Shown one piece after another: positions 7,871 through 29,514 of a stretch of 33,926 bases of DNA (positions within the stretch are counted from its first letter, which is position 1; every line of letters starts with the position of its first letter). Location: NCBI GenBank assembly GCA_009937205.1, contig JAACCR010000050.1, forward strand, positions 1 through 33,926. The letters are read 5' to 3'. The position numbers and the translations under genes were made by a program. Under the pieces are notes generated by a model. It saw only the letters and a program-made list of their open reading frames with translations, made no database searches and was not told the DNA's origin. This DNA is from Methanobacteriota archaeon. Lineage in GTDB: Archaea > Thermoplasmatota > Poseidoniia > Poseidoniales > Poseidoniaceae.

Positions 7871-10195
7871 TTATTCTTCCTCAACATACGCCGTAACCAA
7901 TGATTCCCAGTATGAATCTTGGCGGATAGAGTCGGCCGCACAAATTGCAGCCATGTTGACTATGTGGCGCACACCATCTTGCCTTGCAACTAATTGAACT
8001 GGTTTATCCATGCCTTCTAGAATTGGCCCTGTCATCTCTGCGTCTCCAAGTTCCTCGAGTAATTTGTAAGCGATATTTGCTGCCGCAAGATTAGGCAAAA
8101 CAAGTACATTAGCTGGTCCATCAAAGGCCATGAATTCGTATTCACCTTGTATTGCTCCATTGAGTGCTGTATCTCCTTGCATTGGTCCGTCTATTATCAA
8201 GGACGGGTCGAGTTCTCTGGCAAATTCAATCGCTTCTTCAATCCTCTCAGAACGTTGTGCTCTACTGCTGCCAAAATTGGAGAATGATAACATTGCAACC
8301 TTAGGGTCAACACCAAAACGACGAGCAACCTTTGCGGTTTGAACTGCTATTTCCGCTAATGTTCTACTATCTGGATATACATTGACAGTAGCATCTGCCA
8401 AGAAAACGGTTCTACCTTTGACATTCATCATATAACATCCAATAATGCAATGCGCGTCATCTGCTGAACCTATCAATTCGATAGTTGGCCTAAGTACGTC
8501 TCCATAATTTCTTGAAACTCCTCCAACGAATCCATCAGCATGACCACTCTTTACCATTTGACTTGCGAAATATGGGCGGCTCTTCAGCAACCTTGCAGCG
8601 TCAAGATAGGTCATACCTTTCCGCTTCCTATGATCTAACACAGCCTTTGCATATTCTCCCTTGCGGCGTTTATCACGACGCGGGTCATAAGACTCGTAAT
8701 CGAAATGCAAGCCCAATTCTTCAACCATTGAATCTATTCTCTTCTTTGGACCAAGTAATATTGGAATGCAGATTTTCTGTTCTACTAATTGTGCAGCAGC
8801 CTTGATAACTTTCTCATTATCTCCTTCAGGGAAAACAATTCTCTTGCCTTTTCTACGGACTTGATTGATGACGTGGCGCATTACTGAATAAGATAATCCA
8901 AAGCGACCTTCTAGTTGTTCTTTGTATTTTTCAATGTCGAAATCTTCGGCCTTGACACCAGTTATTCCCTCATCTACAGCCGCTTGTGCAACCGCACTGG
9001 CCTCCCAAATTAATACGCGTCTGTCGAACGGTTTGGGAATTATATATTCCGGCCCATATTGCATTGTCGCGCCATCATAAGCTGCTGAAATATAATCTGG
9101 GACTGGTTCTTTGGCCAATGCTGCAAGCGAATAAGTTGCAGCCATTTTCATACCTTGCGTAATATCACGCGCTCTAACATCTAATGCTCCGCGGAAAATA
9201 TATGGAAACCCTAATACATTATTCACTTGATTAGGATAATCTGATCTTCCAGTAGCAATAATTGCATCATCCCTTACTTCAAGGATATCCTCTGGATCTA
9301 TTTCTGGAGTCGGGTTAGCAAGTGCAAAAATTACCGGTTTGGCAGCCATTGTTGCCACCATTTCTTTAGAAACTAATCCACCTTTAGACAATCCTAACAT
9401 CATATCTGCTCCTTTCAATGCATCTGCTAAATCTCCTCCTTTGACATCATGTGCAAATGTTGCTTTGAATTCATTTAGTTCTCCGGCATCTAAACGCTTC
9501 TTTGTCACAATACCTTGGCTATCTACCATCAAGATATTTTCATTTTTCACCCCTACTGCAACATAGTGGTTAGCACAAGCAATTGCACTTGCACCAGCAC
9601 CGATAACAACAACTTTGATTTTTGATACTTCTTTTCCTTGTAATTCAACCGCATTCAACATTGCTGCTGCAGAAATAATTGCAGTTCCGTGTTGATCGTC
9701 ATGCATAACTGGAATGTCTGTTGCTTCCGCAATTCGCCGTTCAATTTCAAAACACTCTGGCGCCTTGATATCTTCGAGATTAATACCGCCGAATGTTTTT
9801 GCGATATTACAAACCGTATTGATAAATTCTTCAGTATCTTCTGTATCAACTTCAATATCAAAGACATCAATATCTGCGAAAGTTTTCAATAACAATCCTT
9901 TTCCTTCCATGACTGGTTTACTGGCTAATGCACCAATATTTCCAAGTCCTAATACTGCTGTACCGTTTGAAATTACTGCGACTAAATTACCTTTAGATGT
10001 ATATTTGTACGCATCTTCAGGGTTCTTTTCAATCTCTAGACACGGGTAGGCTACACCGGGTGAATAAGCCAAACTCAATTCATATGCTGTTGAATGTGGT
10101 TTAGTAGGTACAACCTTGATTTTTCCACGCGGTTCTAGTTCGTGATATTCTAACGCTTCTTGGCGCAACCTGCGCTCCTTTTTCTCGCGTACCAT
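7871..10195 (-). CDS. maeB: Bifunctional-type malic enzyme with C-terminal phosphotransacetylase-like domain
   Basis: 774 residues, the usual length of MaeB-type malic enzymes (malate + NAD(P)+ to pyruvate + CO2). The malic N-domain has LSLAYSPGVAYPCLEI with the catalytic Tyr, GKGLLLKTFADIDVFDIE with the catalytic Lys, and the metal-binding LEDIKAPECFEIE and MHDDQHGTA. The Rossmann domain has VVIGAGASAIACA. From about residue 430 a phosphate acetyl/butaryltransferase domain follows (RIVFPEGDNEKVIKAA, MLSFSNFGSS, DGPMQGDTALN), which in MaeB proteins is generally regulatory (acetyl-CoA binding). All key residues appear present. ATG at 10195 has GGAAGGGGAAC just upstream. It links the TCA cycle with pyruvate in a heterotroph. 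Divergent from the giant surface-protein gene. Confidence 0.93.
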   Translation of the reverse strand: MVREKKERRLRQEALEYHELEPRGKIKVVPTKPHSTAYELSLAYSPGVAYPCLEIEKNPEDAYKYTSKGNLVAVISNGTAVLGLGNIGALASKPVMEGKGLLLKTFADIDVFDIEVDTEDTEEFINTVCNIAKTFGGINLEDIKAPECFEIERRIAEATDIPVMHDDQHGTAIISAAAMLNAVELQGKEVSKIKVVVIGAGASAIACANHYVAVGVKNENILMVDSQGIVTKKRLDAGELNEFKATFAHDVKGGDLADALKGADMMLGLSKGGLVSKEMVATMAAKPVIFALANPTPEIDPEDILEVRDDAIIATGRSDYPNQVNNVLGFPYIFRGALDVRARDITQGMKMAATYSLAALAKEPVPDYISAAYDGATMQYGPEYIIPKPFDRRVLIWEASAVAQAAVDEGITGVKAEDFDIEKYKEQLEGRFGLSYSVMRHVINQVRRKGKRIVFPEGDNEKVIKAAAQLVEQKICIPILLGPKKRIDSMVEELGLHFDYESYDPRRDKRRKGEYAKAVLDHRKRKGMTYLDAARLLKSRPYFASQMVKSGHADGFVGGVSRNYGDVLRPTIELIGSADDAHCIIGCYMMNVKGRTVFLADATVNVYPDSRTLAEIAVQTAKVARRFGVDPKVAMLSFSNFGSSRAQRSERIEEAIEFARELDPSLIIDGPMQGDTALNGAIQGEYEFMAFDGPANVLVLPNLAAANIAYKLLEELGDAEMTGPILEGMDKPVQLVARQDGVRHIVNMAAICAADSIRQDSYWESLVTAYVEEE

Positions 10196-10389: not shown

Positions 10390-13300
10390 ATGACCCATTA
10401 TTCCAAGGTACCCAAGGCGTCTCGCAGTGCCAGCCAAGCAATCTCGCTTGTGCTGATAATGTTGCTTTCTAGCCTGGCACCTATACTGGCATCTCCTGTT
10501 GTTTCTACACATGGATTGAATGAAAGTGCGATATGGCCAAAGGAGGGGCATAACGACACTGGCTGGGTTCAACTCGACACCGTCGGTGCAGGGGTAACTC
10601 CTGGCGCCCAAGGCATCACTGAATGGCAATTAGAGTTCGCTCCAGGTGCAGATTTGTCAAATGTTTCCTTGCAATTAAGAGTAAATGGTAGCGATGGTTT
10701 ACTAATTGAGGAGCCGATTCTTACCGCCTCTGATATCGGAATTAACTTGTTTGATTGGAGAGGACTTGGGATGTTTGGTTCAAACGATTTCTTTGATGGC
10801 TCCAACCCACATTCCAGCCGATTGAACCCAAATAGTGACACCGGCGCAGGGTGGACTCTACCAAGCGATGCTGAAATTACAGAATTGGTATTTGAAGCCT
10901 TAGCACCTGCTGATCCTGCTGTGTCTTTTGAGCCAATAAATCTCGACATTAGAGCTAATGCGATTCATCCTGACGATGGTAGAATGATGGTTGGTGTTAC
11001 AAATTCTGTTGTTGTATTAGATGCAAATAATGATCCACAAATAATCGATATCATCACATTTGAAAATGCTAGTTCTGTTCTTGATATAGCAGTAGATGAA
11101 GTTAATCGCTACCTGATAGTCCTAACCGATACAGATGGAATACATTTCTTGAACCTAGATGACTGTTCTTTAGCGATGATCGTTCCTGCTCCTGTCGTAA
11201 CAGATACATATCAAACAAAATTACTAACACTAAATGGAATGGTCTATTTGTCAGGTTATGGAGGATTATTCCAATATGATGCTGCTGCAAATTCTTGGCT
11301 AAACTTAGCAGATTCTACTGATGCTAATTGGAATGGTGGATTCTCCGTTGACATGATTGAAAACAATGGAATCATCTATGTCAGTTCATGGGAGAATGGT
11401 ATCAACCGGTGGGACATCTCCTCTGCCACTTCCCTCTCTGCTTGGACTACTGCAAATGTATTGCATTCAGATTATATCTGGTCTATTACAGTCACTAATA
11501 ATCAAATTTTATTCGGTTCATATGATAACGGAGTTGCCCGCTTTGATTGGAATTCTAATTTCTGGTTAAGTACTTGGAACTCTGCAAATTGGTTAGCCAA
11601 TGATGATATTTGGGGTGTTGAATCACTCGGCGATCAATTGCTAATCTTGAACGGGGCAAATGTCCATTATTACAATACTACAAGTGGAGTTTTCGGAACC
11701 ACTGATACATTGTCAAGTTATGGCATCTTTGCAGGTAGATCGATGTTTACTTGGCCTTCAAGTGGCTCTCGCGCACCAATGACTGATACAATCCTACTAA
11801 CAGACTATACAGGGAAGATTGTCAAATTAACACCTACTAAGTCCACTCGCTACGATGGTCAAATCCCGATATCAAGTTCACCAAGTGCAGGTGATATGAC
11901 AAATATTGTTGAGTTGGATAATATCCTATTCATCACCAATCCGTATGTTTTGGATAGATATGACATCGGACAATCCAAATGGCTAAGTCCAGTAATCCAT
12001 GGTATGGCTGCTACTTCAATACATACTGATGGCAGTAGTGTATTCATGGGAACTGAAGCAAATGGAATCATCAATTATGCTAAGAATGGTAGCGTAATTA
12101 ATTCCTATTCCAATGCAAATGGAATGTATAGTAATTCCATCACAAATTTTGCAATCAATAATGGAATCATAGTCTCTACTCATCAAAGTGGTGGAATAAG
12201 TATTATCAATCTCTCATCGTCTTCAATTTTGAGTTATGATTCATCTGATGGGATGGACTCGGATTTTCTAAATGATGTTGCTATCCATCAAGATATAGCC
12301 TTTATTGGAAGTGAAGATTCTGGAATTATTCGATATGATATTAGCAATGATACATTTCTCTCATCTTGGATCTCAACTGGCGTTAACGGAGTAGATTACG
12401 CACCTATCGCAGTTGTTGGAGATATACTACATCTAGGACTTTCAGGCTATGGTGTTGCTCGCAAAGACCTAGCTACTGGAGAGATATTAACGCCTTTGAC
12501 TACACGGGGGGGCGTCTTGCCAAGTTCTAACATCTATGCTTTGGAAAGTGATGGTTCTGATCTCTACATCGGAACCCAGCGTGGAGCAATACGCTGGGAC
12601 GGTAACCAAGCAGATAATTTTGTTAGCGGTAGCCAATGGCAAACAAGGCCAAATCAATTCTTTGACTTCTCTATTGATGGAGGGGATTTGTATGTTGGAA
12701 CAAACATTGGAGTTTGTAAATATGTATTGTCGACTATAACTATTGATGATTGTCAAAATGTCCAAGATGGAATGCCAAATTGGGCTGTATATGCTGTCCA
12801 CTCCGATTCTGATTTCGTATATGGTGGAACTCTTTCCGGTGTTGGATTGATTGATATTACAAATTTTGAACATGATTCAAATTGGGGCGAAGGCGCTCAA
12901 AGTGATACTGCTCCTGTGGAAGTAATCGGTACTACAGCCTATATTGGGCTTGATGGAATTGGTGTATTGAGGTATGATATTACCAACAATACATGGCTTC
13001 CTACTTGGACTGTTAATGGGGTATTAGATACAAACGGAATTACCAGTTTAGTGGCTGACATTAGGCCTAACCAAATTTGGATTGGTGGTGATGACGGTTT
13101 CCAATTGATTGACATTGTCAATGAAACCGAAGAATATGATATTGAAAAAACCAATGCTATGTATTCTGGAAATGGCGATCCGTATCAGTTGATGATTCAT
13201 GGAGACACATTATATTTCCATCAATCCACTCAAAGCGACAGCATCCGTAGAATAAACATCTTGAACTTCACTTCGATGACATCACTCGATATTGGAAGTC

Positions 13301-16300
13301 AATTATCAGAAAATAATGGTGATGTTTACGGAATGAATTTCATCGGTGACATCTTGATGGTCGGATTGGCTTCTGGCCAATGGTGGAATGCAGATGGGTC
13401 TGGCGGTATTGCTCAATGGAATGCCAGCAATAATTCATGGGGGCCAAATGTTGAACCTATTGGAGAGATTAACCGAGTAACATCTTACCTTTCATCTGCT
13501 GGTAATCATTGGGTTGCCTGGGGCGAAACTAAATTGGATCTTTACAATAATGGCTCTTTAGTTAATTCTTGGGATGATTCTGTATTTGACTTCCCAATAA
13601 GAGGAATTGTTGAATTTGATGGTGCGACATTGTTCGCGACTGAAGATGGTGTGGCAAGATATAACGAATCTTCTAATTCTTGGCTAACAACTTGGACTGA
13701 AGGTAGTGGATTACCAAATAATGCAGGAGAGAGGTTCTATGACATCTGGACTGATGGTACTGATTTGGTAGTCGGAGGCGCTGACTTCACTAATTGGGGC
13801 GGATTTAGTACTGGTAGGATTTCCCACTTAGATAGTACTGGTACTTGGTCTACATTTACCGGTGGGCAAAGTGGAATGCCAAATGGATATCCAATTTCTA
13901 TGACAATTTGTGGTGGAGTTCTCAATGTTGCTATGTACAATAATTTCAATGGCGGAATTGCAGTAATCGATTTACAAAATTCTACTGCTGGCACTCATAT
14001 TTCTGGAACTTCTTTGGAAGATGATACTCCTTCAGCAGTGGCTTGTGATGGAGTTAATACACTTTACATCGCTTATTATGCTGACGATATGCCTGTTTCA
14101 AAGTATAGTTATCAAACCGGAACTTGGTTGAATGACATAACTTCTCGAAATCACAATATTCCTTCAGACAGAGTGTGGTGGGATGCAATAAATTATCACG
14201 CTGGTAAACTAATTCTAGGACATGGATTGGGTACTTCTGGCAATAATATCATTGGAGGAGGATATTCAGTTATCGCTACATCCGGGAATACTGCGGCTTC
14301 TGCAACGGTAATCACACAAGGCTCATCAGTCACGTCTTTCCAACCTTATGGCCAAGGTTGGATTATTGGACAAGCGGGTGGAACTTCTGGCTATAGCCAC
14401 GTAGACATAGTATCTTCACAAGGGCTAACTCCTTTGATCAAACTGCCTGGACTTGTCAGTGGACAAATAACAAGTATCGCGGGTAGTGCAACAACTATTT
14501 GGGTTACAACCTTTGGACAATCTCAAGGGTTCGGAATCGCTGGAGGAGCTGGTATTCTTCAAGGTGATCGGAATGCTGATGGATCTATTGAATGGGATTA
14601 TGGATGGTCTCTATCCGCACAATCTCGCGGTAATGATGTTGAATTGATCGGAAATGATCTCTATGTTACTACATCACCCGCAGGGTTGTACAAATTAGAT
14701 GTTCAAACTCTACAACTTACCACCTATACTGGAGCATTGCACAACAGCCACTATGGAATGGTGAAAACAGGAAATGACTTGGTTATCGGGTTATCTGGAC
14801 AAGGTAATTCAATACCAGGTGTGCAAGTTTTCAATATTAATTCTCAGACCTTTACTCAAGGGAAGTTAATCGCAGGATTACCATCCCCTGTGATCAATGG
14901 ATTTGGCAGTACTAGTGATGTCATGTACATCGCTACAAATGGTGGAATCGGTAGATGGAATTATACTACAAGTGATTGGATGAATCCAATTACCATACTT
15001 GAAGGATTACCTTCAAACATTGTTGAAGACATATTAGTAGATGGTAATGATATTTGGTTGACCACTCCAAGTGGACTTGCAAAGTACAGCCCTGGGACTG
15101 GAACTGTCACAACTATGACCTCGCAAACTGGATTGTTTGGAACCTCAACTTGGGGCCTAACAATGAAAACCAGTGGTGCTAATTCCACTCTATACGTTTC
15201 ACACGATGGTAAAAGTACGGAAAGACCTGGTGTTTCCAGTTTTGAGACTAGTACGCCTACATTGATTGATACTCATCGCTTTGACCAAATTCCTTCCAAT
15301 ACTGTTTCCGCATTGGCTGCAGATTGGTGGGGATTACATATCGCCACTGATATCGGTCCAATGACGCACTGGAATGGACAAGTTGGTGAATTTGAAGATG
15401 GAATGGCCTCTTGGCAAATTAGCGGGTGGCCTATTACGAGTATGCAAAGTGACGGCGATGATGTTTTGGTTATTACCGAGCAAGGTGCTGCAATAATCAA
15501 AGCACGAACTGCTACACACGCAATAATAAAATCCTGGTTTAAAACCAATACTTCAGATGGAATATTAACTGCCAACAATGTTTGGCTAACCACTGAAAGT
15601 GATGGCCTATGGGGTTATGAAAGAACTGCATCTTGGAATGAATTAGATCGATTTGAAATGCGTCGTGCAATACCACTGAACGCTGGATTTAATATGAAAA
15701 ATTCTAACATTAGTGAGTGGACGCATCCTGGCGCTCAAATCCAATTGGTTGATGTTGACAATCCTGTCAAATTAGATTCCACTGCTGGTTCTGCGGGCGC
15801 GCATGGTTTGCTATTCCAAAATGTACCTTTGACCTTTACCTCAACGGTTGCTGGCGCTGCTACTTGGTCTCGTTCTGTGTCACTCAAATATAATGCTACA
15901 GTCAACTTAACCAGTGACCCTGGACTTGAAAATACCATGCAGAATGCTGTTGATAATGGTGTGATCATAAATGGAACTCGTTATGTCACACTAACATTAC
16001 GTTCACCAAGCAATGGCTCCCTACAAGCAAGATTAGTTTATGATTATATCAAGTTGGAGACTCCTGTTGAAATGACTAATTTGATCGACAGACCTGATGA
16101 TGGCGGGGGCGCGTTGATGGCTGATTGGACACTCGTTCATGATGAAGACTTTGCTCGTTACCTCGTATATGTTAACGACGGCCCATTCGTTACTACTGGT
16201 GGTTCAGCATTAACTGCAGCAGACCTCACTGGAAGAACGATTGACAAAGCGATTTCATTGCATAGCCGTTTGTCAAGCGGAGTAACTACTGCAAACGGAG

Positions 16301-18660
16301 TACCACTTGTTGATGGAACTGAATATTATGCTGTAATTGTCGTTGAATATAATGATGGAAGATGGGGATTAATCTCATCACCGATGGGACCAGCAACTCC
16401 TACAGATGAAGTACCTAATTCACCACTTTGGGCTACTGCTGGACCATATGATGGTGGCCAAGATGGTGATTTAGAAGTTGAATGGGCACGTTGTACTGCT
16501 CTCGATTTAGCAAGTACCCGCATTTACACATCAACATCTCAAATGACTGATATTTTAGGACTTAGCATAACTGCTGACCTTCCACCAAGTGAAGGGAATA
16601 CTACCATATTATCACTTGATGCTGGCAAACCATACTGGTTGGGTCTAACTTGTGTAGATGAAGCTGGTCAAGAAGATTGGCAAAATGCTACGATTATTGG
16701 CCCAGTTGTACCGACTGGTGGACTAAATGATAACACAGCACCTGCTAAATTAGAAAATGTTGTTGCAATAGATACTCCGGATGATGATGGTGGAAGAATT
16801 ACTATCTCATGGAATATTAGTGCTGATGAGGATGGTACTTTCTATGCCATCTTTATGATGATAGGTGATGAAGAAGTTCAGTATCCAGACAATGTTAATT
16901 CCTTTTCGCAAACGGCTATCATAAATGACTGTGCTGAAAATTCAACTATTATTTCCAATATGGATGGAGTTGATCTGCAAGATGGCCAACTTTACTGGGT
17001 TGGCGTTGTTGCTTACGATGATTGGCTCAATGCTAACTTGGATGATGTCGATGTTGTCGGCGTTACACCGTTTAGAAACACGATGGGTTCAGGCTCAGCA
17101 CCGAGTCGAATTGGCGTAATCAATGCCTTTGATCATGCTGATGATGATGGAACCGCAATAGATGTTATTTGGTCTATTTCTGATGCTGATGATTTCTCCC
17201 ACTACATCGTATGGGTTGCAGATAAACCTGTTACAGACCTCTCAATACTTTGGGCTGCAATAGGTGATGATTCAGCAAACTGTGCCTGTTTGAAGGTGAA
17301 TAAGCAATGGATTGATGAAGATAAGAATCCGATTGAAATCACATTGAGTACTGCCCTATATGGGGGAGATTCATTGTTAGATACTACGCCGAAATCGATT
17401 ATGCCAGATGTTGAATTATATGTCACCGTCACTGTTCATGATAACAAAGGAAATGTATTCCTCACCGATTTAGTTCAAGCAACTGTTACTCCAATCGATA
17501 ATTTGAATGATGTTGTTGCACCAGATCGATTACAAGACTTGGAATTAATTGACAAGCCTGCTGATGATGGAACTGCACTATTACTGGACTTTAATTTGTC
17601 TGATGATGGTGATGTAAAGTCATATGAAGTCTATGCAGCGACTTGGGAATTCACTTCTGTTAGCACTGGAGGAGATGGCCCAATCGCTCCAATCGCAACT
17701 TTATCAAGAAACCCAGAATTGCCTCTGTCTATCAAATTGACTGCGGGTGATACACCTGTGGTTCCTGGCCAGATGGTTTGGGTCGCAGTAGTCGTGATAG
17801 ATTCTTCTGGAAACTCCTTTGAAGATAATTTAGTTGTAGTGAGTGCTGCATCTGTAGACGATGGGATTAATGATATGGGAGCCCATTTACCAGATATTAT
17901 TGGAATTAGTTTAGCATGGAATGAAGAAGTAAATATTCTAGTTCAGTGGCAACATTCCTCATCGTCTTCAGTTAGAGGATATCAAATTTATATCTCCGAT
18001 GAAGAATACACGACTACTGATGACGCTGTATTAGTCGGAGAAGTAAAAGCCAGTAATACATTCCTAATCACTCAAAATGGATTTGAGGATCTTGTGAATA
18101 ATACCGCATGGTATGTATCGGTAAGTGCAATCGATGAAGAATATCACAAAGAAAGTGTCAAGCCGATTAAATTAGACGCCTTTGAGGCCGGTAATATTGG
18201 CGGTGGAAATGACGAATCTGGAGCAGAGGATGAAAGCAAGCAATTGGGTTCATATTTGACAACTCCAAATCTCTTAGCCATGGGATTAGCCATTGTCGCC
18301 CTATTCCTAATACTAGCAATTTTCAAGAGTCGGGGCAGTAACCAACGCCGTAGTAAAGATTGGGAATTACAAGAAGCTACATGGGGATTACAAAATCAAA
18401 ATGATGCTGGATGGGATAATGTTCCGAAGGGAACTCCTGCCCCTCCACCTGCAGCCACCGTTACTCAAACTCAATCAAGTGACATATATGCTGCCGCAAA
18501 CAGAGTTCAATCTGATAGTTATGGCCGACCTGCATATCAAAGCCAACAACCGGTGTTACAGCCTGTTATAAACGAGACACTGCTTGATGATTTAATCGAA
18601 AAGCCGGCACAGCAATCTCAACAGAACATTGACACATCATTCCTTGATGACCTGCTGTGA
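10390..18660 (+). CDS. Giant cell-surface protein: beta-propeller array, Fn3-like repeats, C-terminal membrane anchor
   Basis: 2756 residues. Residues ~1-40 are a signal peptide (basic start, then AISLVLIMLLSSLAPILAS). A beta-sandwich-like segment runs to ~180. From ~180 to ~1800 there are many propeller-type repeats of the form G-x-(I/V)-Y-(V/I)-G-(T/S)-x-x-G-(I/V)-x-R-(W/Y)-(N/D), often with GLPSNxV-type blades like two-component-regulator propellers. From ~1890 to ~2590 there are about six Fn3-like domains, most opening with an acidic D-x-P-x-D-D-G-G/T motif followed by a W and a Y-x-V/I-Y/W strand. A Gly/Glu linker precedes one transmembrane helix (~2624-2645, AMGLAIVALFLILAIF), then a ~110-residue Gln/Pro-rich cytoplasmic tail ending in LLDDLIEK and SFLDDLL. 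Likely an adhesin, glycan-binding or S-layer-associated protein; the ligand is unknown. Confidence 0.85.
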   Translation: MTHYSKVPKASRSASQAISLVLIMLLSSLAPILASPVVSTHGLNESAIWPKEGHNDTGWVQLDTVGAGVTPGAQGITEWQLEFAPGADLSNVSLQLRVNGSDGLLIEEPILTASDIGINLFDWRGLGMFGSNDFFDGSNPHSSRLNPNSDTGAGWTLPSDAEITELVFEALAPADPAVSFEPINLDIRANAIHPDDGRMMVGVTNSVVVLDANNDPQIIDIITFENASSVLDIAVDEVNRYLIVLTDTDGIHFLNLDDCSLAMIVPAPVVTDTYQTKLLTLNGMVYLSGYGGLFQYDAAANSWLNLADSTDANWNGGFSVDMIENNGIIYVSSWENGINRWDISSATSLSAWTTANVLHSDYIWSITVTNNQILFGSYDNGVARFDWNSNFWLSTWNSANWLANDDIWGVESLGDQLLILNGANVHYYNTTSGVFGTTDTLSSYGIFAGRSMFTWPSSGSRAPMTDTILLTDYTGKIVKLTPTKSTRYDGQIPISSSPSAGDMTNIVELDNILFITNPYVLDRYDIGQSKWLSPVIHGMAATSIHTDGSSVFMGTEANGIINYAKNGSVINSYSNANGMYSNSITNFAINNGIIVSTHQSGGISIINLSSSSILSYDSSDGMDSDFLNDVAIHQDIAFIGSEDSGIIRYDISNDTFLSSWISTGVNGVDYAPIAVVGDILHLGLSGYGVARKDLATGEILTPLTTRGGVLPSSNIYALESDGSDLYIGTQRGAIRWDGNQADNFVSGSQWQTRPNQFFDFSIDGGDLYVGTNIGVCKYVLSTITIDDCQNVQDGMPNWAVYAVHSDSDFVYGGTLSGVGLIDITNFEHDSNWGEGAQSDTAPVEVIGTTAYIGLDGIGVLRYDITNNTWLPTWTVNGVLDTNGITSLVADIRPNQIWIGGDDGFQLIDIVNETEEYDIEKTNAMYSGNGDPYQLMIHGDTLYFHQSTQSDSIRRINILNFTSMTSLDIGSQLSENNGDVYGMNFIGDILMVGLASGQWWNADGSGGIAQWNASNNSWGPNVEPIGEINRVTSYLSSAGNHWVAWGETKLDLYNNGSLVNSWDDSVFDFPIRGIVEFDGATLFATEDGVARYNESSNSWLTTWTEGSGLPNNAGERFYDIWTDGTDLVVGGADFTNWGGFSTGRISHLDSTGTWSTFTGGQSGMPNGYPISMTICGGVLNVAMYNNFNGGIAVIDLQNSTAGTHISGTSLEDDTPSAVACDGVNTLYIAYYADDMPVSKYSYQTGTWLNDITSRNHNIPSDRVWWDAINYHAGKLILGHGLGTSGNNIIGGGYSVIATSGNTAASATVITQGSSVTSFQPYGQGWIIGQAGGTSGYSHVDIVSSQGLTPLIKLPGLVSGQITSIAGSATTIWVTTFGQSQGFGIAGGAGILQGDRNADGSIEWDYGWSLSAQSRGNDVELIGNDLYVTTSPAGLYKLDVQTLQLTTYTGALHNSHYGMVKTGNDLVIGLSGQGNSIPGVQVFNINSQTFTQGKLIAGLPSPVINGFGSTSDVMYIATNGGIGRWNYTTSDWMNPITILEGLPSNIVEDILVDGNDIWLTTPSGLAKYSPGTGTVTTMTSQTGLFGTSTWGLTMKTSGANSTLYVSHDGKSTERPGVSSFETSTPTLIDTHRFDQIPSNTVSALAADWWGLHIATDIGPMTHWNGQVGEFEDGMASWQISGWPITSMQSDGDDVLVITEQGAAIIKARTATHAIIKSWFKTNTSDGILTANNVWLTTESDGLWGYERTASWNELDRFEMRRAIPLNAGFNMKNSNISEWTHPGAQIQLVDVDNPVKLDSTAGSAGAHGLLFQNVPLTFTSTVAGAATWSRSVSLKYNATVNLTSDPGLENTMQNAVDNGVIINGTRYVTLTLRSPSNGSLQARLVYDYIKLETPVEMTNLIDRPDDGGGALMADWTLVHDEDFARYLVYVNDGPFVTTGGSALTAADLTGRTIDKAISLHSRLSSGVTTANGVPLVDGTEYYAVIVVEYNDGRWGLISSPMGPATPTDEVPNSPLWATAGPYDGGQDGDLEVEWARCTALDLASTRIYTSTSQMTDILGLSITADLPPSEGNTTILSLDAGKPYWLGLTCVDEAGQEDWQNATIIGPVVPTGGLNDNTAPAKLENVVAIDTPDDDGGRITISWNISADEDGTFYAIFMMIGDEEVQYPDNVNSFSQTAIINDCAENSTIISNMDGVDLQDGQLYWVGVVAYDDWLNANLDDVDVVGVTPFRNTMGSGSAPSRIGVINAFDHADDDGTAIDVIWSISDADDFSHYIVWVADKPVTDLSILWAAIGDDSANCACLKVNKQWIDEDKNPIEITLSTALYGGDSLLDTTPKSIMPDVELYVTVTVHDNKGNVFLTDLVQATVTPIDNLNDVVAPDRLQDLELIDKPADDGTALLLDFNLSDDGDVKSYEVYAATWEFTSVSTGGDGPIAPIATLSRNPELPLSIKLTAGDTPVVPGQMVWVAVVVIDSSGNSFEDNLVVVSAASVDDGINDMGAHLPDIIGISLAWNEEVNILVQWQHSSSSSVRGYQIYISDEEYTTTDDAVLVGEVKASNTFLITQNGFEDLVNNTAWYVSVSAIDEEYHKESVKPIKLDAFEAGNIGGGNDESGAEDESKQLGSYLTTPNLLAMGLAIVALFLILAIFKSRGSNQRRSKDWELQEATWGLQNQNDAGWDNVPKGTPAPPPAATVTQTQSSDIYAAANRVQSDSYGRPAYQSQQPVLQPVINETLLDDLIEKPAQQSQQNIDTSFLDDLL

Positions 18661-22175: not shown

Positions 22176-22784
22176 TCAGGGCTGAATCAATTTGTATAGT
22201 TCCCATGCAATCCACCCAGGAACTACACCCGCCACTACATCGACAACATAATGCTGCTTTGTCCACAAAGCGCTTAATGCAATAATTACTGGGAATAAGA
22301 AAGGCCAATTCCCAACTTCTGCAACATTATTAGCAACATGGAAGGCAACTAAAGTCGCTACAGAAACATGCATGCTTGGAAAGCAGTTGGTATTATCATC
22401 ATATTTTTGAACAAGTTGCATAAAACGTACGCTGCGAGTCTGTTTAATATCACTAAAGTCTCTCCAGTCCGCAGGTGTTTCTACTGGATAATAGCGGACA
22501 AATGCCATTTGAATAAATAGTAAGAAGACGAATGACATAAATGAATAATTATATTCTTTCATATTATCAATTGTTAAAACCGTTGCAATTATCATTGGGT
22601 AATACAAGCCAGAATATAACCAAACCCAATAGCCTTTGAATTTGAAAAGTTTGTCAACTTTCATATCAAATTGCTTTGCAGGTTTTATCATATGATTCTG
22701 AGTTAAAAAATAAAATTGATAGACTCCCACTATTAAGAAAATCGTCATTACGATTGCAACAATTATATCTTGTAATGGCATCAT
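22176..22784 (-). CDS. PAP2-superfamily membrane phosphatase/phosphotransferase (inositolphosphotransferase Aur1-like)
   Basis: 202 residues with about five membrane helices. The phosphatase motif C2 is NCFPSMHVSVA (PSMH at 136-139) and motif C3 is LWTKQHYVVDVVAGVVPGW (His178, Asp182). Motif C1 (KxxxxxxRP) is not clear, as in the inositol phosphorylceramide synthase/Aur1-like branch. It probably acts on a lipid phosphate or transfers a polar head group at the outer face of the membrane; with a serine decarboxylase of lipid synthesis a few genes away, a role in archaeal lipid head groups is possible. The start is ATG-ATG at 22784. The 89 bases upstream, before YchF's stop, are AT-rich and hold no visible gene. 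Confidence 0.8.
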   Translation of the reverse strand: MMPLQDIIVAIVMTIFLIVGVYQFYFLTQNHMIKPAKQFDMKVDKLFKFKGYWVWLYSGLYYPMIIATVLTIDNMKEYNYSFMSFVFLLFIQMAFVRYYPVETPADWRDFSDIKQTRSVRFMQLVQKYDDNTNCFPSMHVSVATLVAFHVANNVAEVGNWPFLFPVIIALSALWTKQHYVVDVVAGVVPGWIAWELYKLIQP

Positions 22785-24172: not shown

Positions 24173-26311
24173 TCAGGCCTCTGTGATAAGGCTGACTAAA
24201 TCTTTCTTTGTTCCTGACGTATCTAGGCCTAAAGAAGTTGCAAGTTCAACTAATTCAGCCTTCTTCATCTTGTTGAGTTGGGCTTTGGAAGGGACTTCAA
24301 CTTCCGATGTTGATTGTTTAGCAGCATTCGCTTTGCGAATCTTTGCAATTGCAATCGAAAGTTCTGGTAAGTTGATTTGTCCATCTCCGTCAATGTCGAT
24401 AGCAGCGATAAGGGAATCCATTTCCCACGGTGGTAGGTTTGCAACCTTTGAACTCTTCAATGCCATTTGGAATTCATAAGCATCTACCATTCCAGAATTA
24501 TCTAAATCAATGGACTCGAAAAATTGGAAAATGGTTTGCCCTGAATCTGCTAAATAATCTGCAAGCATTGTTAATTCATTACCAGTCTCTTTTGATTGTT
24601 CTTCTTCAACAACTTCTTCTTCTTCTGGGAATTCAGTGACTTCATCATCGTGTAGTGCTGCGGAAACTGCGATTACAGTGCTTCCACCTTCTTTTTCTTC
24701 TATTTCCCCTACTACCAGCGTGGTATCGACTCCAACTCCTCGTCCTAGCAGTGTGCGAATTGTTGTTGTTCCATCTCCTAGATTGTAGGTATCAATATCC
24801 GAAACAGATGTTTGAGAATGGTTTGATGTGATCTTTGAAGCACTTGTTCTTATGACTACTAATGTGGCCAATATTGCACCTATTGCAGTGAAATAGAATA
24901 ATGCTGCTCCGACTAAATAGAATCCTTCTGTTTGAGCAACTGCATCTTCAACACCTGAATTTGCAACTGCTTGCATTGTAAAGTCTCCAATCAGATTTGT
25001 AATTGTAGATGCAAAGCCTCCGAATAAAACAAACCAAACTGTTAGGTTGGCTTTACTTGGTTCGGAAAGTTCTTTGTTACAAGCCAATGGATGTGAAATG
25101 TAAGCACCTGATAAGATCATCAAACCACCAACAGTCCATAGGAATCCCATGTCAAGAGTTGTTGCCATATCTCCAAGTTGTCCTGTTCCGAGGAATACAT
25201 CCATTCCAGTGAAGAACGCTCCAATTGCATAGAGAGGTAGCAATACCATTGCAAGTGTTGCCGCAAGAGCCCCTGGATTCTTGACGATTGCAGATGTATT
25301 GCCACTAGCGGTGAATAGTAAGTTGACGCTACCTGCGATTATTGGTAGTAGGCCAAGTGTCATTACGATTGCACCAAGGTTGAGTAATGTTGTAGAAGCA
25401 CTCGCTGAAGCAATGAAGAATGGTGGAAGGGTAATGAATAGCAAGAATAGATTCGCTTGGCGCATTGAGGCAGACCAAATTGGTGTACCTGATGTCATCG
25501 GGATAATGTGGTATGCTGCAGAGAATATTAGAGCCAAGATTACCCAAGAGCTACCCATTTGACCCGCAAGCCAAACTATTTGGGTTGAGCCGGCAAGTTC
25601 GCCAAAGAATCCTAAGAACATTGACAAAATAAATGTCAGTAGAGCGAATATCAGGAACCAAGCACTGGTGGAAACTTCTTCATCGCCCCTATTTGCAACT
25701 GTTAGTAAGACGTTTACAAATAATCCAGCAACTATCATTGCAACTGCCAATTTGGAGACTGCATCGATTAATACAATATTTATTGCACTGTCTATGTCTT
25801 GCCCTAGCAGCCCTAATAGCGATGGTAATAATGCAGCAAATATTGTTGTTAAGGTAAACAAAAATGCTGAAAGTGATGCGCTTGCTTCACTTGCCATTTT
25901 CCCATTGCTGCTACGTGAAATTGAAACAAGTCCTGCACCAACAAGAGTTGAAAATACTGCAACTCCAAGGAATTTGGTAGTGGTTGCTGTTAATGCATCA
26001 CCATTATCGTATGCCCATCCAATGCTTGCTAGAGAATCTAGCGCTGTTGGATCGTAGTGATGCCACAGTCCGAGGAATCCACAAATTGAAGAGAATACGA
26101 ACCATAGCATGCCGAAATTAATCCATGTTCTAGCACCGCTACCTGGCTTGCTATCGAATAAGTCCACTAAACCTGCTGGGGCCTTGTTGAGGAAGAATAG
26201 TGAAAATTGGCGCATTGCCTCTGACATACTGCCTATTCCTTTTTCTGTGTAATTCGCGGTAAACCACATTGCGATTACTGTTATTGCAATTCCAAAAAAT
26301 ACTGATTCCAT
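24173..26311 (-). CDS. Heme-copper-oxidase subunit I-like membrane protein lacking heme ligands, with EF-hands and SAP motif
   Basis: 712 residues: about 13 membrane helices (1-~500), an acidic linker (~500-595), two canonical EF-hand loops (602-613 DLDNSGMVDAYE; 639-650 DIDGDGQINLPE) and a C-terminal SAP motif (~678-712, KMKKAELVELATSLGL). By eye the membrane part follows cbb3/NorB-type oxidase subunit I: HIIPMTSGTPIWSASM (His268 region) parallels YYxxPxxxGRPLYS, and LPIIAGSVNLLFTASG parallels the next helix, giving 12 core helices after one extra N-terminal helix. The positions where oxidases have heme and CuB histidines read LTATTTKF, AGQMGSS, ASASAS and LDMGFL, so all ligands seem lost. 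Catalysis is therefore unlikely; a calcium-responsive membrane sensor or tether is my inference. GGAGGTG precedes the ATG by six bases. Confidence 0.6.
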   Translation of the reverse strand: MESVFFGIAITVIAMWFTANYTEKGIGSMSEAMRQFSLFFLNKAPAGLVDLFDSKPGSGARTWINFGMLWFVFSSICGFLGLWHHYDPTALDSLASIGWAYDNGDALTATTTKFLGVAVFSTLVGAGLVSISRSSNGKMASEASASLSAFLFTLTTIFAALLPSLLGLLGQDIDSAINIVLIDAVSKLAVAMIVAGLFVNVLLTVANRGDEEVSTSAWFLIFALLTFILSMFLGFFGELAGSTQIVWLAGQMGSSWVILALIFSAAYHIIPMTSGTPIWSASMRQANLFLLFITLPPFFIASASASTTLLNLGAIVMTLGLLPIIAGSVNLLFTASGNTSAIVKNPGALAATLAMVLLPLYAIGAFFTGMDVFLGTGQLGDMATTLDMGFLWTVGGLMILSGAYISHPLACNKELSEPSKANLTVWFVLFGGFASTITNLIGDFTMQAVANSGVEDAVAQTEGFYLVGAALFYFTAIGAILATLVVIRTSASKITSNHSQTSVSDIDTYNLGDGTTTIRTLLGRGVGVDTTLVVGEIEEKEGGSTVIAVSAALHDDEVTEFPEEEEVVEEEQSKETGNELTMLADYLADSGQTIFQFFESIDLDNSGMVDAYEFQMALKSSKVANLPPWEMDSLIAAIDIDGDGQINLPELSIAIAKIRKANAAKQSTSEVEVPSKAQLNKMKKAELVELATSLGLDTSGTKKDLVSLITEA

Positions 26312-27946: not shown

Positions 27947-28795
27947 CTACTCCACAGGTGTATAAAGAATCGTAGAACCCGCCATCACGAATTGGCCCTT
28001 CGGATGCTCCGAATCCCCGTCTTCTGCTGAGATCACACCGACATTGAATTTTGATGCTTGAACTCTAACGTCGACTCTAGAGCCTAGGCGTATCATCCCG
28101 AATCTTTGACCTCGGCGCAATGTTGCACCCTGACTTACCCATGGAACAATCGTTCTTGCCAATGCCCCTGAAATTTGCATGACTTCGGCTATTGTTCCAT
28201 CATCACTTTGGAATACTGAACGAACTCTTTCATTGTATTGACTTTCTTTTTTGAATGCTGCAGCAAAGGGTCCACGGCGCATACCCTTGCCAGTTCTGTG
28301 TTCCATTGCCGTGATAGTGCTAGCCATTGGAGCGCGATTGACATGTACATCAAGTGGTGACATGAATACTGCTATTCTCCAAACATCTGTATCCGATTCT
28401 TGGCCTTTGGGAACTGCTTCGAATTGCTGTTCGGTTGTGAATGATAGTGGTTCATCCAATGGTTCTGGATACCAGTCTCCTGTCTGTTTGTCACTTGTAC
28501 ATTTACCAGATTCTAATTCTTTCTTACTTGGCCGGCGTCCAATCGCTCTTTCTCTTTTTGCAAACATTACATGGCCATCAGCAGGCGAAGTAATAATTCC
28601 TGGCTGAGAAGGAATCTTCCGGTCTGGATCTCGCCAAAAATTGGCAAAGAATGCGGATAACATCAAACAAAATATTCCGAAAAGTGGAACGAGACCACTA
28701 AGTGGATCAATTATTGCTCCTATGACAACAGCGCTAACGCCCATCATCATTGGAATGATGACCGGCCCGTGCCCACCATGGGCTGAACCACCCAC
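27947..28795 (-). CDS. asd: Phosphatidylserine/archaetidylserine decarboxylase proenzyme, short form
   Basis: About 282 residues from a GTG at 28795. One or two N-terminal membrane helices (VIIPMMMGVSAVVIGAIID, LVPLFGIFCLMLSAFFA) precede the family core: FWRDPDRKIP, SPADGHVMFAK, AVFMSPLDVHVNRAPM, and the self-cleavage site RLGSRVDV, where Ser239 would become the pyruvoyl cofactor (short-form enzymes have GSRVD rather than LGST). It should decarboxylate serine lipid to ethanolamine lipid at the membrane; in archaea the substrate is archaetidylserine. It carries an extra charged insertion (KRERAIGRRPSKKELESGK and on). Start chosen by a GAGGTG seven bases upstream; a TTG at 28810 is the alternative. 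Follows the coiled-coil gene by 11 bases. Confidence 0.85.
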   Translation of the reverse strand: MGGSAHGGHGPVIIPMMMGVSAVVIGAIIDPLSGLVPLFGIFCLMLSAFFANFWRDPDRKIPSQPGIITSPADGHVMFAKRERAIGRRPSKKELESGKCTSDKQTGDWYPEPLDEPLSFTTEQQFEAVPKGQESDTDVWRIAVFMSPLDVHVNRAPMASTITAMEHRTGKGMRRGPFAAAFKKESQYNERVRSVFQSDDGTIAEVMQISGALARTIVPWVSQGATLRRGQRFGMIRLGSRVDVRVQASKFNVGVISAEDGDSEHPKGQFVMAGSTILYTPVE

Positions 28796-28802
28796 TGATA
28801 CA

Positions 28803-28808
28803 CACCTC
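28803..28808 (-). promoter_or_regulatory. Shine-Dalgarno site that decides the decarboxylase start
   Basis: Leftward GAGGTG overlaps the stop of the coiled-coil gene and is seven bases before the GTG at 28795. It argues for GTG rather than the more upstream TTG at 28810, which the motif would overlap. Confidence 0.55.
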
Positions 28809-29514
28809 AATTGTCAGACTCTGCGTCTGCTTCATCATCAGCGTCTGCTTCTGCTTCTGCTTCTGCGTCTGCTTCTTCTTCGATTACTTCAATCGGTGAA
28901 GTTTCTTCAGCAGCTGCTTCTGCTTCTGCTTCTTCTTCTGACATTTCGGAAGCTCTAACTTCAACCATTTCATCGATGCGTTCGTTGAATGCGCGAGTCA
29001 TGTGTTCACTTTGGCGTTCTGTTTCAACAGCACGTTCAATCATTGTATATCTATCCTTAATGGCCTTATTCAGGTCCTCGAATAATGACATGTGAGCGAC
29101 ATACCAATCGTCACGTGCTTTCATCTCAGTAACTGCTAAACGCAAATCCCCATCAAGTTCCTCTGCAATGTTGAATACTTTACCAAGGCGATCTTTTTCA
29201 CGAGAATACTTTTCTTCCATCTTTGCCAAAGCAGGTTCTAAATGCTCAACTTGCTTTCCACCTCTTACTGCTCTAAGTTCGAGTTCTCTAATTCTAACTT
29301 CCTTTTCGGAAAGTAGTGCTTCATTTGCTTCATTGGTTATTTCTCGCTCAATGATTTCCTTCTCAAGAACTTCGATTTCAGCCTTTGCCGTTCGCAAATC
29401 TTCAACCTGTGACTCGTGTGCTGCGAATAACTTCAACAAACGATCAGTTTGAGTCTCCAATTCTTCTTGAAGTTGTTTAATTCTAATTTCCGGAGTGATA
29501 GTTCCTTCAGACAT
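28807..29514 (-). CDS. Acidic coiled-coil protein, unknown
   Basis: 235 residues. Residues ~8-115 are a long heptad-rich helix (IKQLQEELETQTDRLLKLF, KAEIEVLEKEIIEREI, and on), a second helix runs to about 185, and the last ~50 residues are a low-complexity Glu/Ala/Asp tail (EEEAEAEAAAEE ... ADADDEADAESDN). No signal peptide or membrane helix, so it is cytoplasmic. A structural, scaffold or chromosome/membrane-associated role is possible but not shown. ATG at 29514 with AAGGTGAG five bases upstream, and a TATA-like CCTTTATGC near 29575-29584 on the leftward strand. It probably heads the transcript that continues into the lipid decarboxylase. Confidence 0.75.
   Translation of the reverse strand: MSEGTITPEIRIKQLQEELETQTDRLLKLFAAHESQVEDLRTAKAEIEVLEKEIIEREITNEANEALLSEKEVRIRELELRAVRGGKQVEHLEPALAKMEEKYSREKDRLGKVFNIAEELDGDLRLAVTEMKARDDWYVAHMSLFEDLNKAIKDRYTMIERAVETERQSEHMTRAFNERIDEMVEVRASEMSEEEAEAEAAAEETSPIEVIEEEADAEAEAEADADDEADAESDN
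28820..28880. repeat. Low-complexity hexamer tract coding the acidic tail
   Basis: Imperfect repeats of CTGCTT/CTGCGT on the + strand, i.e. GAAGCA/GACGCA codons on the coding strand. It encodes the Glu-Ala/Asp-Ala tail of the coiled-coil protein. The same tract gives a long Ser/Ala frame on the opposite strand that I regard as a shadow. Tracts of this kind may vary in length between strains. Confidence 0.65.

Follow-up and report, generated by a model that had tools for sequence, protein, structure and literature searches.

What is a giant archaeal surface protein doing with a short, precisely ended tail on the inner side of the membrane? The question is raised by an open reading frame in a 33,926-nucleotide stretch of DNA (the window; contig JAACCR010000050.1 of assembly GCA_009937205.1). 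The source genome and its relatives belong to the family Poseidoniaceae of Candidatus Poseidoniales (Marine Group II, MGII). These are the most abundant archaea in the plankton of the surface ocean and have no cultured representatives (PMC6461757).

Anatomy of a giant membrane protein

The reading frame at 10390..18660 (+) is intact, and full-length orthologues without internal stops are present in most genomes. Its product is a giant type I membrane protein of 2756 amino acids (aa), encoded throughout on the forward strand. From the N to the C terminus, it comprises a signal peptide (about aa 1–36, 10390..10497; sequence and hydropathy), a conserved N-terminal domain (aa 45–184, 10522..10941; AlphaFold2 confidence low), an array of β-propeller blades, a domain joining propellers and stalk (aa 1752–1892, 15643..16065; conservation, AlphaFold2 and profile comparison), six Fn3-type units, a transmembrane helix (about aa 2627–2645, 18268..18324; hydropathy) followed by the basic stretch KSRGSNQRRSK, and a cytoplasmic tail of 111 residues (18325..18657; sequence and orthologue alignment). 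The length, the blade array, the six Fn3-type units, the membrane segment and the tail with its two LDDL motifs agree with the initial annotation of the gene. The signal peptide, the single later hydrophobic helix and the basic stretch together point to type I topology, which would place the tail inside the cell. Acidic residues far outnumber basic ones in the ectodomain (306 D+E versus 99 K+R), which also has 31 N-glycosylation sequons; the cysteines C776, C788, C1174, C1219, C2035 and C2088 are conserved, and all of this fits an exposed protein. Pfam and NCBIfam searches with the full-length protein returned nothing above thresholds, and kinship between the N-terminal domain and the middle domain found no support.

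A propeller array on an Fn3-type stalk

An iterated blade HMM, built from the giant protein itself, identified 26 copies there and 21–29 in homologues. We also generated AlphaFold2 models from orthologue alignments; their mean pLDDT was modest (63 for aa 40–1110 and 54 for aa 1108–2260), and many blades in the first model reached 70–88. As we read the strand pattern, it contains 35 four-strand units of ~44 residues from aa 185 to 1750 (10942..15639), which would probably divide naturally into five seven-bladed propellers. Blade HMM and predicted strands both resolve the repeat area into propeller blades, as first annotated, and not into a single non-propeller fold.

Foldseek searches of the PDB returned, for the first part of the array, the ectodomains BT4663, BT3049 and BT4673 of Bacteroides hybrid two-component system (HTCS) sensors as best matches (E 3e-21), then LRP2, ROS1 and PorZ; for the second part, the best were BT4673, ROS1 and BT4663. 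Given the modest AlphaFold2 confidence, these alignments indicate fold class, not homology. The HTCS alignments had TM-scores of 0.33 or less at 11–14% identity, the global scores being low because the models are loose. At the sequence level, homologues match several propeller families weakly (Reg_prop, WDR36/Utp21, PorZ_N, PQQ and Kelch), beside unrelated weak ones. Pfam Reg_prop matched weakly in 6 of 16 homologues (best 6.8e-5) with no match in the window protein, and PorZ_N weakly in 2 of 16. Searching PDB sequences with the propeller half yielded weak WD-propeller matches together with spurious ones, and the one match to the second half was discarded as spurious.

Profile–profile comparison shows the six Fn3-type units (aa 1893–2600) to be mutually homologous (E 1.4e-20 to 2e-4). 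Pfam fn3 (PF00041) matches 10 of 34 homologues (best 3.5e-8), and the window copy scores 24.0 bits, just under the curated cutoff of 25 bits; a PDB sequence search with the stalk found a contactin Fn3 domain (E 0.008). On these scores, with fn3 and with each other, the units can be assigned to the Fn3 domain family. Most had been described as opening with D-x-P-x-D-D-G-G/T, and the motif is indeed present in four of six when A is admitted at the P position: unit 1 (16066..16401, DRPDDGGG; also supported by Pfam fn3), unit 3 (16726..17085, DTPDDDGG), unit 4 (17086..17502, DHADDDGT, the one with A) and unit 5 (17503..17859, DKPADDGT). Unit 2 (16402..16725) is without the canonical opening, as is unit 6 (17860..18189), which gives the best Pfam fn3 match. 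Across the order, two Asp residues and a Gly of the motif vary little or not at all; all 75 aligned sequences have the first conserved Asp, the second one and the Gly in each of units 3, 4 and 5. The motif could be a putative calcium holder or a structural turn.

A core surface protein of Candidatus Poseidoniales

We found orthologues in 162 of the 171 genomes representing the family and in 143 of the 146 representing the order, both of its families included; the few absences mean little because most genomes are incomplete. In a phylum-wide draw, full-length matches came from Poseidoniales only. Four more distant genomes gave short matches, mostly to the Fn3 region, and five listed genomes from another family of the same class gave none. 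In these searches, the protein is essentially absent beyond Poseidoniales.

In nearly all loci examined in both families, a malic enzyme gene lies upstream on the opposite strand, and genes for a class IV aminotransferase and a chorismate-binding enzyme lie downstream. The upstream neighbour in the window, fixed across the order, encodes a fused malic enzyme and phosphate acetyl/butyryl transferase (7871-10195, −). A search for an operon partner at the conserved locus found metabolic enzymes with no evident link to the giant. The tree of orthologues splits the two families, as expected under vertical descent. Usually present in one copy and inherited vertically at a fixed locus, the giant ranks as a core surface protein of the order. 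Some Poseidoniaceae have a second copy, a paralogue, at another locus; it forms its own clade in the tree.

Having one copy in almost every genome is also how a housekeeping envelope protein behaves. The main rival to a receptor-like function is a passive one: the giant would be a structural coat or a plain adhesin, and its tail would do no more than attach it to a scaffold inside the cell (cytoskeleton, division or envelope protein), with no role in signalling. Adhesins, too, often contain propeller and Fn3 domains. We further count in its favour that two MGII overviews, in which the term S-layer is absent, name adhesion genes (flotillin, thrombospondin and archaellum among them; PMC6461757 and PMC6336850). 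However, the solved structures nearest in fold are ectodomains of ligand sensors or receptors, and a residue-exact tail end is not expected of a plain anchor. We consider the coat or adhesin explanation possible though less likely, and the strongest of the competitors.

Selection on short motifs in the tail

Conservation of the tail, which the first reading presupposed, holds in the homologues examined. In Poseidoniaceae, four short boxes sit within a Pro/Gln/Ala-rich linker: WELQEATWGIQ by the membrane, DIYAAAQRI, L-L-N/D-D/E-L and a terminal IDTSFLDDLL. Their counterparts in the window protein are WELQEATWGLQ (aa 2658–2668, 18361..18393), DIYAAANRV (aa 2698–2706, 18481..18507), LLDDLIEK (aa 2731–2738, 18580..18603) and IDTSFLDDLL (aa 2747–2756, 18628..18657), of which SFLDDLL forms aa 2750–2756. 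The last nine residues, DTSFLDDLL, do not vary among the 53 aligned Poseidoniaceae orthologues, which represent 11 genera, and are the best conserved of the 2748 nine-residue windows of the whole protein, with windows of the juxtamembrane box ranking third, fourth and sixth. The rest of the tail is low-complexity and variable (mean identity 0.53 versus 0.62 for the whole protein). A family member left out of the alignment, from genome G005, reads DTSFLDELL.

The predicted GTG start of the downstream aminotransferase gene overlaps the giant's stop by four bases (18657), as would suit an end conserved as an overlapping nucleotide signal for that gene. However, we counted 45 DNA versions of DTSFLDDLL, all synonymous and differing at as many as 12 of the 27 bases, so the constraint acts on protein and not on nucleotides. 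Moreover, the match to the downstream gene begins tens of bases past the stop in many orthologues, and the paralogue has the same end beside other neighbours. We rejected this explanation on the synonymous variation and regard it as extremely improbable. The alignments show purifying selection on the tail motifs.

In the sister family, Thalassarchaeaceae, most ends are relaxed (DTSFLDDML, DTSFLDEML, DTSFIDDIL or DASFLDDML) and rank 583 of 2748, thus with lower conservation. Repeated D-D-L-D-D-M-A-D-D-L stretches often precede the end, and the juxtamembrane box differs (PWEMGALEVELEEQM). Some genera are without the exact terminal box, reading DLEDFF or DIDDLF (g12), SLIDDLL (g17) and NLDDIL (g15). 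One Thalassarchaeaceae orthologue (L122, genome G186) has an EF-hand-like loop, DENNDRYLDAIEL, in the tail ahead of its terminal SFLDDLL. Four orthologues carry two to four residues past the terminal box (LLIP, MLEDQ, MLDDQ and ALDDN), indicating that a free C terminus at exactly that place is not essential. The paralogue keeps the juxtamembrane box and the end (IDVSFLDDLL or VDVSFLDELL) and has a new, Pro/Gln-rich linker; keeping both ends while replacing what lies between is the behaviour of docking motifs on a spacer.

A tail seen only on the giant and its paralogue in the genomes scanned

An end that is short, C-terminal, acidic-hydrophobic, nearly invariant and kept on the paralogue might instead be an acidic-dileucine-like sorting, assembly or quality-control signal, serving biogenesis or turnover and not signal output. 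A general signal of this kind should be shared, but the genomes scanned contained no other carrier. A single tail query of 9 genomes found no other protein with the tail; two weak matches (E 0.4 and 0.7) were a chance match and the paralogue. A tail profile, run on 16 genomes, and the DNA pattern F-L-D-D/E-L-L-stop, also run on 16, matched only the giant gene and the paralogue, and in 14 Thalassarchaeaceae genomes a degenerate DNA pattern gave at most one match per genome, at or adjoining the 3′ end of the giant gene. An apparent extra carrier (contig C89 of G005) proved to be the tail of the same gene, separated from it where the contig broke within a QP repeat.

The tail appears, on these scans, to be specific to the giant protein and its paralogue, and the idea that other large anchored proteins of the lineage might carry it was not borne out. 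Because no other protein was found with it, a pure sorting signal is less likely, and the extra residues behind the end in several orthologues also speak against a signal that needs an exact free C terminus. We assign this explanation a low probability, well below that of a coat protein or adhesin.

A receptor-like reading

That the tail end is the best-conserved stretch of the protein in one family suggests docking of an inner partner, and a tail conserved in this way is better explained by interaction in the cytoplasm than by inert anchoring. We favour, at a probability of about 55%, a receptor-like surface protein whose tail motifs dock a cytosolic partner and thereby couple the head to the inside. 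The giant would be exported via its signal peptide and then anchored in the membrane through a single helix close to the C terminus. The ~35 blades, probably as five seven-bladed propellers, would form an external recognition head borne on a stalk of six Fn3-type units. We infer that this head recognizes ligands, probably glycans or proteins, of particles or neighbouring cells; that the inner tail is disordered; that a partner exists; and that the purpose is coupling rather than passive anchoring. The short linear motifs of the tail, namely the juxtamembrane WELQEATWG-type box, the acidic-hydrophobic L-L-x-D/E-L and the terminal [ILV]D-T-S-F-L-D-D-L-L, would dock one or more such partners.

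No kinase or other signalling domain was detected in the giant, and no partner was found. From the proposal of the initial annotation, that the tail implies a cytoplasmic partner in signalling or sorting rather than a plain adhesin, what stands is a tail that is conserved, under selection and probably a docking site; its sharing by other anchored proteins found no support in the genomes scanned. More speculatively, the giant might represent a novel type of archaeal receptor system, a kinase-free, multi-propeller protein with a dedicated cytosolic partner bound through fixed tail motifs and core since the ancestor of Ca. Poseidoniales, an idea that we hold as possible though doubtful. The giant marks the order, and its residue-exact putative docking motif offers a handle on contact with particles or neighbours; the short tail peptide could serve as bait for finding the inner partner. 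In literature searches that covered few subscription papers, we found no description of the giant's family, and nothing relevant to the giant in work on cytoplasmic tails and on proteomes.

Comparison with known systems

Among known systems, the nearest in probable mode of action are ROS1/Sevenless and the Bacteroides propeller glycan sensors, yet the giant is a member of neither, as the kinase, Y_Y_Y and YWTD domains were tested and are missing. HTCS proteins of the BT4663, BT3049 and BT4673 type (Reg_prop propellers plus Y_Y_Y) resemble the giant in the fold class of their blade arrays outside the membrane, which may be Reg_prop-like in the giant, and provide the best Foldseek matches for both of its halves. 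BT4663 binds disaccharides on its propellers (PMC5121618). HTCS have 14 blades, whereas the giant has ~35 and adds six Fn3 units. Y_Y_Y, which in HTCS lies between propellers and membrane, matched neither the window protein nor any of 24 segments of homologues; Fn3 units take its place. The histidine kinase, receiver and AraC domains of HTCS are also absent from the giant, whose 111-residue, low-complexity tail has no domain matches.

ROS1/Sevenless, among the top fold matches, likewise combine several propellers with Fn3 domains on a single-pass protein; their propellers are of the YWTD type and are accompanied by nine Fn3 domains and an intracellular kinase (PMC11743138). By contrast, in the giant the propellers come first, there is no tyrosine kinase and no YWTD family match; scans of homologues that admitted E values as high as 1 gave no LDL-receptor repeat (YWTD). 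PorZ, also a Foldseek match sharing the propeller fold, has two seven-bladed propellers of HTCS-like fold (PMC5121618). It acts in secretion at the outer membrane and carries a secretion domain at its C terminus, whereas the giant has a transmembrane helix and a cytoplasmic tail. Sortilin/SorLA-type receptors, with a propeller and Fn3 ectodomain and an acidic-dileucine-like tail end, resemble the giant and serve here as a lead only. Neither the ten-bladed VPS10 domain nor the LDL-receptor domain had a Pfam match in the giant or in homologue scans, and an fn3_SORL1 match in one homologue (E 0.09) was too weak to be evidence of Sortilin/SorLA kinship.

Other genes in the window

Three further genes, all on the reverse strand, are of separate interest. 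The gene at 22176-22784 (−) encodes a PAP2-type phosphatase present in the three closest relatives only and missing at this spot in the other 17 loci, which looks like a recent gain or loss. At 27947-28810 (−) lies a 287-aa phosphatidylserine/archaetidylserine decarboxylase-type enzyme; most of its matches come in two separate stretches, and they fall below NCBIfam cutoffs. The gene at 24173-26311 (−), in the same place in 20 of 20 compared loci of the genus, encodes a 712-aa polytopic membrane protein with a C-terminal, cytoplasmic-looking EF-hand pair and a SAP domain.
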